Below are positions 38,085-43,145 of a DNA stretch of 43,835 nucleotides, one piece after another. The notes under the pieces are model-generated. The model was not told the DNA's origin. It did no database searches and was given only the letters and a program-made list of their open reading frames with translations. The stretch is from positions 1 to 43,835 of the forward strand of contig JABWCQ010000004.1 of NCBI GenBank assembly GCA_013360195.1, read 5' to 3'. The translations under genes and the position numbers were made by a program. Numbering within the stretch: position 1 is the stretch's first letter; each line of letters begins with the position of its first letter. The stretch is from a bacterium. GTDB taxonomy: Bacteria; Electryoneota; RPQS01.

Positions 38085-38636
38085 ATGAAAAAGACATTAG
38101 GTTTGCTGCTTTTCCTCGGTCTGGCAGTCGTTTCTGCGCAGGCTGATGATCACGCATTGGTCAAGCCTGCCGCTGATGATGTTGAGCTGGGTACGCTGCA
38201 TACTATGAACAATGTTTTTGCGGTCAAGGAAGAGCACAAGTCAGCCCTTTGCACCTGCGGCAAGGAGTTCGAGGTGACTTCCGAATCCGCAAGTGTCGAT
38301 ATCCACGGACTAACTTTGTACTCGTGCAGTCAGCAATGCGCGGAGAAAATGAAGGGCTCAAGTGCGGAGGAGATGATCAAGGCCATCATGGACTGGGAAA
38401 GGTCTTTTGCCGCGAAGGAGATGGCCTCCAACTGCATCATGCAGGACGGCAAGAAAATGGCGACCTGCGCTTGCGGCGGTACCTTTGAAGTCGGGGCGAA
38501 AACCCCTTGCGTGGTCGAAAACGGCATGAAATTGAGCACCTGCTGCGAAGGTTGTGCAGAGCACGTCATGAAGTCCAGCCCTGAAGAACGGGCGGCCATG
38601 ATGAAGAAGGCCATGTACACGGCTGACAAGAAATAG
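38085..38636 (+). CDS. Exported protein with two CxC-x22-CxxxC domains
   Basis: 183 residues with a signal peptide ending VSAQA. Two tandem copies of one cysteine motif are present: Cys56-x-Cys58, 22 residues, Cys81-xxx-Cys85; then Cys128-x-Cys130, 22 residues, Cys153-xxx-Cys157, with an extra Cys at 154. Each copy also shares a (K/G)x(F)EV strand and a following Glu/Met-rich helix. The arrangement resembles TRASH/YHS-type metal-binding modules, so a periplasmic metal-binding or metal-sensing role is likely. The metal is unknown. AGGAG lies 7-8 nt before the ATG, and the gene has its own promoter and terminator. I know no named family with exactly this pattern. Confidence 0.75.
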   Translation: MKKTLGLLLFLGLAVVSAQADDHALVKPAADDVELGTLHTMNNVFAVKEEHKSALCTCGKEFEVTSESASVDIHGLTLYSCSQQCAEKMKGSSAEEMIKAIMDWERSFAAKEMASNCIMQDGKKMATCACGGTFEVGAKTPCVVENGMKLSTCCEGCAEHVMKSSPEERAAMMKKAMYTADKK

Positions 38637-38656
38637 ATTACGGAATCCGGGCCAGG

Positions 38657-38681
38657 GGGCTGCCGTTGGGCAGCCCTTTTT
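38657..38681 (+). terminator. Terminator of the cysteine-motif gene
   Basis: GGGCTGCC/GGCAGCCC stem with a GTTG loop and TTTTTG after it. Confidence 0.9.
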
Positions 38682-38728: not shown

Positions 38729-40414
38729 ATGAGGCTTGCGTCAGCAATAGTCGTGTTATTCGTGATTTCAGTACCGGGGCTCGCCTTTACAGGCGAGTTC
38801 CCGTTGTTGAGTCATGGATGGAATGACTACATGGAACGGTTCGAGACTTCAACAAAGTATAGATTGAACCACGGAGCGAGGCCAAATCTCGTCAATCGGC
38901 GGCCTGTTCGACACACGGATTACTTTGATTTCACGGAGAACGAAGTCAGTGAAATGCAAAGAATCACGGCCAAAGAGTGGAACCGATATTTTGGGGAGTA
39001 TGCCAGTCGCCATCTAGTAATGAGCGGTTTACGAATAGGCGGACCCTCTGAGCACGGTATGAAGTACCGTAATGCCGGATGGCCGACGATTCTAAGGAAG
39101 TTTTATGCAGACGGCTACCATTTCTATACATACGGTTCGGACGACGACAACTTTGCCTTCTCCGTCCAACCCGTTTACGGGCTTCGAGTAATCGAGACCG
39201 ACGACGAGCGCGGGAAAATAACTCAGTTCACGGGCGGGTTTCGTGTTGAGGCAGGATATGATTCGCGTCTCTACGGGATGGTGGACTTTCGGGACATCAC
39301 GGAGGCAGGGAACGGGCCTTACAGCAGTCGTGCTGCACTCTATGAAGACAATGTTGCGAGTGCCGAGTTGAAAGGGGATGGGGGGACATCCTACGACATC
39401 TCTGAATCCATTCTACAATACTACGGAAGAAACCTTGCGATTTCAGCAGGTCGCGGCCGGCACAAATGGGGACCGGGTTATTTTGGCGGACTTCTCTTGA
39501 ACAGTTATGCGCCGCCGTTCGACTATGCACGATTCGACGCGAATTTCAACCGAGTCAGTTATACATTTCTGCACGGATTTCTGGAGTCAATAATACCGGC
39601 AGACACACTCTACACCAATCCGGATGGCCGTCCTCGTACAATCAATGCTCAGAAGTATCTGTCGGCTCAACGGCTCGAAATTTCTCCCCGGGACAATGTG
39701 CTGCTTGCCTTTTCGCAGGCTGTTGTTTATGGTGACCGAGGGCTGCAGTTAGGTTATTTGACGCCGCTGAATTTCTTGTACAGTGTTCAGCATTCTAACG
39801 ACGACAAAGACAATCTTTTGATCTCGCTGGACGGCAAGTGGCGGCCGATACAGGGATTGAAGATTTATGGCGAACTATTGCTTGATGACGTGCTGGTAAG
39901 CGACCTGTTTCGAGGTACAGGCAACAGCAAGAATGCCTTTACGGTGGGAGCTCATGGAATCATTCCGAAACCCGTCTGGGAGAAGTTTGACGCGCGAATT
40001 GAATACACCAAGATACGTCCATTTGTCTATTCGCACTTCTTTGAGGTGAATACCTTCTCGCATTGGACATCGCCTCTGGGATATACACGCGAACCAAACA
40101 GTGAGTTTATCAATTTCCGGTTGGGGGCTTCATTTTATCCGCTGTATCTATCTGTCGGATATGAAAGACAAAATCACGGGGCGAACACTGAAACTGAGAA
40201 TGTCGGCGGCTCTATCTACGAGACGAACTTCGAAGGCAACAACGAAAGTTTTCCGTTCCTATCCGGTAGATTTGAGCAGACCTCCAAGATCAGATTTGGT
40301 GCGCGTTATGAGGTCTTGCCTAATCTCAATTTACGGCTTGAGATTGACGCAATCTCTGAAAGTCGTATGCAGGATCGGACAGAGTGGAAGGCGGGATTCG
40401 GGTGGAATCTTTAG
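38729..40414 (+). CDS. Wzi-like capsule-assembly outer-membrane protein
   Basis: A 561-residue predicted outer-membrane beta-barrel. Signal peptide ~1-19 (ending LAFTG-like). A helical N-terminal region (~25-110) precedes the strands. Residues ~240-270 (SAGRGRHKWGPGYFGGLLL then NSYAPPFDYARF) match the most conserved segment of the Wzi capsule-assembly family. The C-terminal strands end in WKAGFGWNL, as in barrel proteins recognised by the BAM complex. Wzi in Escherichia binds capsule at the surface. A similar role in polysaccharide attachment or export is inferred. The SDR gene overlaps its 3' end, and the selenoprotein gene follows. Confidence 0.85.
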   Translation: MRLASAIVVLFVISVPGLAFTGEFPLLSHGWNDYMERFETSTKYRLNHGARPNLVNRRPVRHTDYFDFTENEVSEMQRITAKEWNRYFGEYASRHLVMSGLRIGGPSEHGMKYRNAGWPTILRKFYADGYHFYTYGSDDDNFAFSVQPVYGLRVIETDDERGKITQFTGGFRVEAGYDSRLYGMVDFRDITEAGNGPYSSRAALYEDNVASAELKGDGGTSYDISESILQYYGRNLAISAGRGRHKWGPGYFGGLLLNSYAPPFDYARFDANFNRVSYTFLHGFLESIIPADTLYTNPDGRPRTINAQKYLSAQRLEISPRDNVLLAFSQAVVYGDRGLQLGYLTPLNFLYSVQHSNDDKDNLLISLDGKWRPIQGLKIYGELLLDDVLVSDLFRGTGNSKNAFTVGAHGIIPKPVWEKFDARIEYTKIRPFVYSHFFEVNTFSHWTSPLGYTREPNSEFINFRLGASFYPLYLSVGYERQNHGANTETENVGGSIYETNFEGNNESFPFLSGRFEQTSKIRFGARYEVLPNLNLRLEIDAISESRMQDRTEWKAGFGWNL

Positions 40415-41085
40415 AAAAGGAAGCTGCTGCCACACTAATCGTTGGTGTTTCAGGTGACCTGATTGAAGTCGCGAGGGCACTTGGCCGGAACGGAGAAAAG
40501 ATCGGACTGGTCTCGAAGAACTCGGATTTGCTGTATCGTTACAAGGACAGACTCGAGGAATATGGAGTCGGCTGTTCGGCTTTCGTTGCGGATGTCACGG
40601 ACTCGCAAAGTGTCTTGAATATGCTGACCAAATTCAGCGCGTGGTCGCCGCGACTTGACAGATTGATTTACAACGTCGGTGTGATGTCTAATGAACGAGC
40701 TGGTCAAGTTTCCGAAGGCGAGCTTGCCACGGCGATGAGCGCGAATTTCTACGGATTTGTGAACTGCTTTCAATTGGTGCAGACGATGTTTTCGAGGCTT
40801 GGCAGGGGTCATGCAGTGGTGATGTCGAGTGCCGCCGCACTGTCACCGGACGAACATCCGGTCGCGAATTCTACCAGCAAGGCTTCACTGCGGATCTTTA
40901 TCAAGGCTCTGCGCAAGGAACTGGATAGCAAGGAGATTATCATATCTGAAGTTTTTCTCGGAAGTATGCGAACAAGTGCCGGCCAGAGAGAATTGACGTG
41001 CGAGGAGATCGTCCACGGACTAATGCACGTTCTTCGTGAGCAGCCGGATGAATATCTGATAGGTCAAAGCGAGATTCACACATAG
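40402..41085 (+). CDS. SDR-family protein with altered catalytic motifs
   Basis: 227 residues in the short-chain dehydrogenase/reductase fold. The GTG at 40402 overlaps the wzi-like stop by 13 nt. A GTG at 40384 is also possible. The usual TGxxxGIG nucleotide loop reads VGVSGDLI and NNAG reads NVG. The catalytic Ser is kept (VMSSAAAL). The Tyr of YxxxK is replaced by Asn while the Lys stays (NSTSKASL). NAD(P) binding may persist, but standard Tyr-dependent catalysis should not. The rest of the fold (ADVTDSQSV, MSANFYG, ISEVFLGSMRT) is intact, which argues for a functional but altered protein rather than a pseudogene. The selW-like gene starts 8 nt downstream. Confidence 0.8.
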   Translation: MESLEKEAAATLIVGVSGDLIEVARALGRNGEKIGLVSKNSDLLYRYKDRLEEYGVGCSAFVADVTDSQSVLNMLTKFSAWSPRLDRLIYNVGVMSNERAGQVSEGELATAMSANFYGFVNCFQLVQTMFSRLGRGHAVVMSSAAALSPDEHPVANSTSKASLRIFIKALRKELDSKEIIISEVFLGSMRTSAGQRELTCEEIVHGLMHVLREQPDEYLIGQSEIHT

Positions 41086-41093
41086 GTGCCTGA

Positions 41094-41315
41094 ATGAAAT
41101 GGTCAATTGAATACTGCGTTCAGTGAAACTACGGCCCCAGGGCAGCCAGTTTGGCTGAATCTATGAAAAAACAAGGATTTGCGGATCCTGAACTTGTTCG
41201 CTCGGGTGGTGGTGCATTTGAGATTCGCAAGAATGGTATCCTCCTTTTCTCAAAACTGCAGGAGCACAGATTTCCCACAGACTCAGAAGTTATTGAATTA
41301 TTGAAAGATAAATAG
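41094..41315 (+). CDS. Selenoprotein W-like (Rdx family) with in-frame TGA as Sec
   Basis: A 73-residue small redox protein of the SelT/SelW/SelH (Rdx) family with a thioredoxin-like fold. Reading ATG at 41094 through TGA at 41124-41126 to TAG at 41313-41315 gives IEYCVQ-U-NYGPRAASLAE near the N-terminus. This lines up with the Rdx active-site motif EYC-x-x-(C/U)-NY-x-PRA, so the TGA falls exactly on the redox Cys/Sec position (Cys8, Sec11). The C-terminal part also fits: GGGAFEIRKNGILLFSK and RFPTDSEVIELLKD match the family's GGVFEI...G..I..K....FP pattern. AGGTG lies 5 nt upstream of the ATG, and the SDR stop is 8 nt away, so it is the last gene of the wzi-SDR operon. The closest substitute reading is a shorter frame from ATG 41163, which lacks the active site. 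Confidence 0.92.
41143..41157 (+). promoter_or_regulatory. Bacterial SECIS-like hairpin
   Basis: CAGCCA/TGGCTG, a perfect 6-bp stem, with loop GTT that begins with G. The loop starts 23 nt after the TGA, within the 16-37 nt window known for bacterial SECIS elements bound by SelB. Confidence 0.7.
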
Positions 41316-41318
41316 GTT

Positions 41319-41355
41319 TTCCTGTCACGAAATTAATTTGGATTTGTGTCAGGAA
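41319..41355. repeat. Inverted repeat before the promoter at 41359
   Basis: TTCCTGTCAC (41319-41328) pairs with GTGTCAGGAA (41346-41355) with one mismatch. The perfect palindrome AAATTAATTT sits between (41330-41339). There is no T-run, so it is more like an operator or activator site than a terminator. It ends 3 nt before the -35 box. Confidence 0.5.
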
Positions 41356-41358
41356 TAA

Positions 41359-41387
41359 TTGACAAAACACAAGTCCGACAGTATATT
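41359..41387 (+). promoter_or_regulatory. Promoter of the beta-helix T9SS gene
   Basis: TTGACA (41359-41364), 17-nt spacer, TATATT (41382-41387). The leader is ~125 nt. It shares the CAG-TATATT junction with the promoter at 37979-38007. Confidence 0.8.
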
Positions 41388-41519
41388 GTATCAGCAACCG
41401 TGTATTCGGCACGGGAGCTTGTTTATTTTGTATCGCCTCTGACGTCGTAGATCACCGAAGAACAGAAGGTTACACCACTTTTGCTGTAAAGGCAGCAGAA
41501 AACTGACAGGACATTCCCA

Positions 41520-43145
41520 ATGAGAATGAACTTCACGAAGTGGATTCTGATCTGCATGACCCTTGCCAGCGCTGCAGGGGCCGGGGTGATTAACGTCCCC
41601 GCAGGTCCTGTATGGGGTAAGTGGAATACTGGTGATTCTGTAATTGTTCAGCCGGGCGCATACGTGCCTGAGGGACAACTCCTGATTGTTGAAGGTGGCG
41701 CGCATATCTTTTTTGCGGGGTCCGGCCGTTTCGATGCAGAAGGTGTGTTGCGAATGGAGGGCTCAGTCTTGAGCCCTATTTACGTCTATTCGGTAGAGAA
41801 CTGGCGCGGTTTCAGATTGTCCGGATCGGTGTGGCACCTGTTCAACAGTGTTCACATCATGTCGGATGTCGGTTTGGCGCGTCAATGCGTTGAACTTGTT
41901 GACGGTGGTTTGGAGCTGAATGATTGTTCGTTTCGTGCATCTGAGAATTGCCTGAGAATTAGTTCCGGCCAGTTGCATGCCCGGCGCAACTCGTTCGTGA
42001 CTTCCGGTTTGTACTCGCGAGTCGTTGAACTGAACAATTTGGTTGGTTTTGCCTCGACGGACTGTAACGAAGCTCCGGGTAATATATTCCGTGACAATTT
42101 CCTGAAAGCTGAAGTCGGACCGCTCGGCCCCGGTGATCCCATAGATCCGTTTAACTCGACTGCCGGTCTCTGGGTTGAGAATAGCACGAACATATGTTTG
42201 AGTGCCAATAACATCATTGTCAGGGCACCGTTGAATGTGATTGGCGCACGTTTTGGCAATACGCCGGACTTCGGTGATCAGTCTTGGGACCTCGACTTCA
42301 CGATTGTTTATGCCGAAAGCTATTCTCAGATGGCACTAGGTGTACTGAACGAGGTGAACGGAAACCTTGACGTTTCCAAGATGACCATTACGGTGCGCGG
42401 CGCGGCAGGGTATACATCGAGCTGCTTCTTCGCTTCAAGGACGGCCTATATCCGCGTGAACTCCACGACTACCATTATGGGCAGCCCCGTGGACATATAT
42501 TTTAACACGAGTGGCACAGGCCGAATCGATGCCGACTACGTAGTAAAGTGGATGGAGCCAGGTTTGTCATTGGATTATGCGCCGGAGAATCCACTTTTCA
42601 ATTCCGCTGAAGTGATTTATGAGTCGTTTGATGAGTTAACAGTATTCTTGGGTGATTCGATTTGGGAAGACAACCCTGATTTCGCCATGGTTGGTAATTG
42701 GGGACATTGGAATTCCAATGAGGAATTGGCAGCGTTCTTCAGTTTGACTCCCACTTCGCCGTGCATAGATCGGGGCGATCCGGCATACGGTAATGACCCG
42801 GATGACACCAGACTTGATATCGGCAGGTTCTACTTCCATCAGGAACAGTCACCCGTACATGACCGACCCGGGATTGTTGGAAGTGCCGTAATGGAGGCTG
42901 CATATCCGAATCCGTTCAATCCGGCCACCGTACTGCCGATCGCGGTCAATGGTTCGGGTGTTCTTCACATTACGGTGTGGGATGTGCTTGGGCGGACTGT
43001 TTACGAGCTGTCCCGTCCAGTGTATTCTCCTGGCTTGCAAAATGTGCACTTCGATGCCTCTGGACTGTCTACAGGGCTGTATGTGGCTCAGGCAGAGTTT
43101 GGCGGTCGAGTCATCGGGTCCCAGCGCCTCTTATTCGTTAAGTAG
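41520..43145 (+). CDS. Secreted beta-helix-like protein with T9SS domain
   Basis: A 541-residue exported protein. The ATG at 41520 has AGGA 8 nt upstream, and a second ATG follows two codons later. Signal peptide ends near AAGAG. Residues ~25-400 show short repeated strands with regularly spaced hydrophobic and Asn/Gly residues (GGLELNDCSFRASENCLRI, SGQLHARRNSF), typical of right-handed parallel beta-helix proteins, which often bind or cleave polysaccharides. No catalytic motif is clear. The PCIDRGDP motif at ~415-422 is common at the end of such helices. The last ~80 residues (YPNPFNPATVLPI, VWDVLGRTV, RLLFVK) are a T9SS type A sorting domain. Confidence 0.85.
   Translation: MRMNFTKWILICMTLASAAGAGVINVPAGPVWGKWNTGDSVIVQPGAYVPEGQLLIVEGGAHIFFAGSGRFDAEGVLRMEGSVLSPIYVYSVENWRGFRLSGSVWHLFNSVHIMSDVGLARQCVELVDGGLELNDCSFRASENCLRISSGQLHARRNSFVTSGLYSRVVELNNLVGFASTDCNEAPGNIFRDNFLKAEVGPLGPGDPIDPFNSTAGLWVENSTNICLSANNIIVRAPLNVIGARFGNTPDFGDQSWDLDFTIVYAESYSQMALGVLNEVNGNLDVSKMTITVRGAAGYTSSCFFASRTAYIRVNSTTTIMGSPVDIYFNTSGTGRIDADYVVKWMEPGLSLDYAPENPLFNSAEVIYESFDELTVFLGDSIWEDNPDFAMVGNWGHWNSNEELAAFFSLTPTSPCIDRGDPAYGNDPDDTRLDIGRFYFHQEQSPVHDRPGIVGSAVMEAAYPNPFNPATVLPIAVNGSGVLHITVWDVLGRTVYELSRPVYSPGLQNVHFDASGLSTGLYVAQAEFGGRVIGSQRLLFVK

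Follow-up and report, generated by a model that had tools for sequence, protein, structure and literature searches.

A SelW-like gene of a KSB1-related bacterium whose in-frame UGA is very probably read as selenocysteine

In the window, i.e., the 43,835-nucleotide stretch of DNA analysed here (contig C4 of genome G000, an assembly of 3.23 Mb in 46 contigs that is 95.8% complete), a TGA codon lies inside a frame that otherwise reads as one small protein, which raises the question of whether this codon ends a gene or encodes selenocysteine (Sec). The original prediction had proposed a single Rdx/SelW gene that continues across the TGA, with this codon at the redox-active position. The features in question are the following:

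41094..41315, + strand: selW, encoding a 73-residue Rdx/SelW selenoprotein with the CxxU motif C8-V-Q-U11
41124..41126, + strand: TGA codon read as selenocysteine (U11), kept in homologs
41084..41088, + strand: AGGTG ribosome-binding site of selW, from direct reading

Direct reading shows an ATG at 41094, nine more codons, the TGA at 41124-41126, then another 62 sense codons and a TAG at 41313-41315, with zero other in-frame stops between the ATG and the TAG, as had been claimed. When the TGA is read as U, the product begins with MKWSIEYCVQUNYGPRAASLAESMKK and ends with ELLKDK, so that residue 11 is indeed the U of CxxU. The AGGTG site expected before the start was found 5 nt upstream of the ATG, where it overlaps the stop of the preceding gene. 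The Pfam profile Rdx (PF10262) matches residues 4-72, that is, 69 of the 73 residues and straight through the TGA (E = 1.8 × 10−15, 57 bits, cut-off 22.6), and the product scores 56 bits against TIGR02174 (CXXU_selWTH, SelT/W/H; cut-off 34.2); the family search that the original prediction called for thus places the product above both cut-offs.

The fold agrees with this assignment. The AlphaFold model built from a nine-sequence alignment (pLDDT 92) has the order strand-helix-strand-strand-strand-helix and places CxxU between strand E3-8 and helix H14-26; C8 and U11 are invariant across the 9 orthologs. The best Foldseek matches of the model are all solved SelW-related proteins (2fa8, 2obk, 3dex, 2ojl and 2p0g; TM 0.81-0.89), followed by mouse SelW (TM 0.62), with thioredoxins weaker; the predicted structure is thus of the SelW-type thioredoxin-like kind. 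The product is a small thioredoxin-like Rdx protein lacking a signal peptide and would most likely act as a cytoplasmic thiol/selenol oxidoreductase.

Comparison with relatives shows how consistently the TGA is kept. In the family of the source genome, the gene is present in 9 of 11 genomes, including all 7 of high quality, each copy having a single TGA, always at this codon, and invariant residues flank the TGA on both sides in these nine orthologs. Across the phylum, 17 of 39 genomes, from 13 genera, carry the gene, and all 17 have TGA at that codon. A wider public scan identified 65 relatives, of which 62 have TGA and 3 have Cys at this position; these sequences, which were retrieved with an alignment query (a single-protein query of genome contigs gave none), come from Verrucomicrobia, Chloroflexi, Bacillaceae, Calditrichota and others, mostly from other phyla, with a few being the family-member contigs already counted above (e.g., L044, L049, L050 and L051). 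Judged from codon comparison, the part 3' of the TGA is under purifying selection: dN is 0.27-0.46 vs. dS above 1, and the frame is open in all 9 family members. Frameshifts in close relatives, which had been named as a possible sign of decay, were looked for, and none was found, the TGA being retained.

These frequencies bear directly on the possibility that UGA is a true stop, in which case the locus would be a Cys-type gene in decay, or would encode a peptide of 10 residues with translation resuming at TTG 41151. A mechanical ORF of 54 aa does start at this TTG, and a gene caller would report either this ORF or nothing, in line with the loss or truncation anticipated by the original prediction. 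However, the restart product would be devoid of CxxU and of the first strand of the fold, and a true stop is difficult to reconcile with the same TGA in every phylum homolog without frameshift, with the selection acting downstream or with the invariant residues on either side. We consider a true stop very improbable.

The element expected to direct Sec insertion is the following:

41143..41157, + strand: bacterial SECIS hairpin, with a 5-bp stem CAGCC/GGCUG, loop AGUUU, G in loop position 2, and covariation

The original prediction of a G-loop hairpin 23 nt past the TGA was exact in position, the loop G (41149) of CAGCC-AGUUU-GGCUG being the 23rd base after the TGA. Bacterial SECIS elements are described as having a small apical loop with a G as one of its first two bases, 16-37 nt 3' of the UGA (PMC13188914); here the loop has 5 nt (AGUUU) and lies 21 nt after the UGA. 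Taken alone, the hairpin in the window is no better than shuffles (z ~0 for folds of 40-52 nt), 230 of 5000 synonymous recodings (~5%) give an equally good stem-loop, and an Rfam scan of positions 40900-41520 returned only a chance match to isrA (E = 0.19). Since the window hairpin by itself does not exceed chance, the case for its reality rests on comparison. In the nine family members, 45 of 45 stem cells pair, and A-U alternates with G-C through changes at two synonymous third bases (GCA occurs with GCT, and GCG with GCC), and RNAalifold recovers the same stem unprompted. When 39 distinct sequences drawn from several phyla are compared, the five stem pairs form in 95.9% of cells; these sequences are related, such that the covariation counts are not independent events. 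When synonymous codons were permuted between sequences, preserving every protein sequence, pairing was 82.4 ± 1.6%, and the observed value was reached in 0 of 2000 permutations; pairing was 71.6% with random synonymous codons and 19-53% with slid partners. Loops elsewhere read AGUUU, AGUCU, GGUCU, AGGUU and similar, with G at position 1-2 even in distant phyla. The Cys homologs, a sample of only three of which one (L108) is doubtful, each lose two of the five pairs. The SECIS element is thus supported by covariation among relatives, and this comparison of stem and loop is the strongest evidence for UGA decoding.

The same comparison weighs on the explanation that the hairpin is no SECIS but arises only from the conserved coding of AASLAE, another signal being used to decode the UGA. 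The protein motif alone does yield 72-82% pairing in the controls, but the observed pairing lies above all of the protein-preserving permutations, third-base changes are matched, the loop G is kept in distant phyla and the Cys forms (only three) lose pairs; the probability left to a by-product hairpin is accordingly very small.

The genome encodes the machinery that Sec insertion calls for. We identified one copy of tRNA-Sec (C2:176084-176178; 57 bits, above the Rfam cut-off), which ARAGORN likewise calls tRNA-Sec with anticodon UCA, SelA at C2:160066 and SelB at C2:165772, both within 16 kb of the tRNA-Sec, and SelD at G000:C4:129453-130367 (L018:1501-2415), which has an in-frame TGA of its own in the motif RCAGUASK. 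The original prediction had named missing selA, selB, selC and selD genes as grounds for doubt; as tRNA-Sec, SelA, SelB and SelD are all encoded, these grounds fall away. Among the phylum genomes with a Sec-SelW, SelA occurs together with tRNA-Sec in 16 of 17; the remaining genome, G010, is 88% complete. A comparison for further conserved in-frame-TGA genes in the window, in four 20-kb stretches of its own genome and in the stretches of relatives mostly returned shadow frames of ordinary genes, and only SelW and SelD were convincing. That UGA is generally reassigned or suppressed, with insertion of, e.g., Trp or Gly in place of Sec, has a practically negligible probability: an in-frame UGA by itself leaves the inserted residue unspecified, but UGA is the terminal stop of selW in two orthologs (L020 and L027) and is therefore still a stop in the lineage, not reassigned throughout, residue 11 falls on the redox Cys/Sec position of the family, and the genome encodes tRNA-Sec(UCA), SelA, SelB and SelD together with a covarying SECIS.

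Taken together, the frame, the family, the predicted fold, the Sec machinery, the conserved UGA and the selected SECIS, each documented in this analysis, are best explained jointly by an intact selW gene, in which UGA is translated as Sec through SelB and the 3' hairpin to give an Rdx-type product, and we hold this explanation, which bears out the original prediction, with very high confidence. By analogy with the family, SelB carrying Sec-tRNA-Sec would bind the hairpin that closely follows the UGA, Sec would be inserted at the redox position of CxxU, and the ribosome would then read on to the TAG at 41313. By the same analogy, the Cys8 thiol and the selenol would cycle with a selenenyl-sulphide, and oxidised SelW may be reduced by a small thiol or by thioredoxin.

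The occurrence of tRNA-Sec in this phylum also touches on a published statement. KSB1 has been reported to have selA, selB and selD but to lack selC (PMC9012183). Of the 39 genomes examined from the KSB1-related phylum of the window, 32 carry tRNA-Sec, so that the published absence of selC is probably a matter of annotation, with the reservation that the two genome sets may differ; at least for the genomes examined here, the statement is corrected. Separately, all six genomes of f4, a sister family in the same phylum (G020-G025; L128-L136 and L139-L143) have two SelA and two tRNA-Sec, and five of the six have two full-length SelB. In G020, both tRNA-Sec have the anticodon UCA by ARAGORN, and the two SelA are 48% identical; the SelB of the family form two clades with ~33-39% identity between them and 46-56% and 67-74% within them. 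Judging from these sequences, family f4 looks like a case of two parallel Sec systems in one cell, the most interesting by-product of the selW analysis.

The neighbourhood of selW contains the following features:

38654..38679, + strand: terminator-like hairpin of 11 bp immediately ahead of the Wzi gene, from a consensus scan only
38729..40414, + strand: outer-membrane beta-barrel of Wzi-like type, whose gene opens the Wzi-SDR-SelW group, from PF14052 and synteny
40384..41085, + strand: SDR-family protein whose catalytic residues are degenerate (Asn in place of Tyr), encoded immediately ahead of selW, from PF00106, a 7-ortholog alignment and synteny
41359..41387, + strand: sigma-70-like promoter (11/12) after selW, from a consensus scan only

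Both neighbours described in the original prediction were recovered, the Wzi-like barrel with PF14052 (E = 3.3 × 10−10) and the altered SDR with PF00106 (E = 6.5 × 10−25) and its catalytic Tyr replaced by Asn. The terminator-like hairpin is the probable upstream limit of the operon, and since the promoter-like site after selW probably serves the next gene (41520), selW is probably the last gene; the two sites, which are consensus matches only, are consistent with selW closing a three-gene operon. Only two of the seven SDR orthologs retain Tyr and Lys as catalytic residues, the other five having lost one or both, and an invariant Cys is found in an NCF motif; by its residues, the SDR of the window is likely a pseudo-enzyme. 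Most f1 and f2 genomes examined show the order Wzi-like barrel, SDR, SelW, T9SS-tailed secreted protein and a further protein. In L045 (family f2), SelW lies ~2.4 kb after the SDR; no SDR was found between barrel and SelW in L114, L049 and L034, and where Sec-SelW genes further afield were tested (family f5, other phyla), they lay outside the Wzi-SDR context. A tentative idea, which we regard as unlikely, is that the barrel, the degenerate SDR and SelW act together as a single functional module, in which SelW would serve the pseudo-SDR as a dedicated redox partner while a cell-surface component is made or exported. Also in the window, positions 38085-38636 encode a protein of 183 aa whose N terminus resembles a signal sequence and which contains C-x-C ... 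C-x3-C-type motifs in two repeats; it has no Pfam match, is conserved in G002 and G003 and perhaps binds metal.

SelW-like bacterial selenoproteins were first described in 2005-2006 (PMC1088965, PMC1794560). They are the most numerous selenoprotein family in ocean samples (427; PMC2398784) and a survey covering more than 5200 organisms recorded 35 of them (PMC5029168), both papers marking the family as frequent in bacteria; a CxxU pfam10262 selenoprotein is also listed in PMC9312934. That annotation overlooks this long-known and frequent family is itself established (PMC1794560, PMC2398784, PMC4607533), the genes having been completely missed in epsilonproteobacteria (PMC4607533). The window gene shares with the family (PF10262, TIGR02174) the N-terminal CxxU, the thioredoxin-like fold, the SGGAFE and FP motifs, and the in-frame UGA with a downstream bSECIS; it differs in its operon partners, which are the degenerate SDR and the Wzi-like barrel. 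Campylobacter jejuni SelW (CJnc60), for which UGA readthrough was demonstrated by Ribo-seq and proteomics (PMC11955535), is likewise encoded by a small unannotated selW, whereas the window protein stays under the cut-off of the SelTWH_Campy equivalog NF041051 (77.2 bits vs. 88). Agrobacterium Atu0228 (2fa8) and the other solved bacterial SelW-related proteins have their fold in common with the window SelW (TM 0.84-0.89), with about 28-31% identity, but 2fa8 has Cys (CTQC) at the position of the UGA.

The window selW thus adds one member to the known SelW/Rdx selenoprotein family and gives an uncultured KSB1-related lineage a selenoprotein with firm support; this lineage was not named with SelW in the published bacterial selenoprotein surveys that we compared. 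The gene is a further illustration that annotation with the standard code loses such genes. The recurrent Wzi-SDR-SelW order offers a testable lead on the role of bacterial SelW, and the module, if true, would be the first specific pathway for this protein in bacteria.
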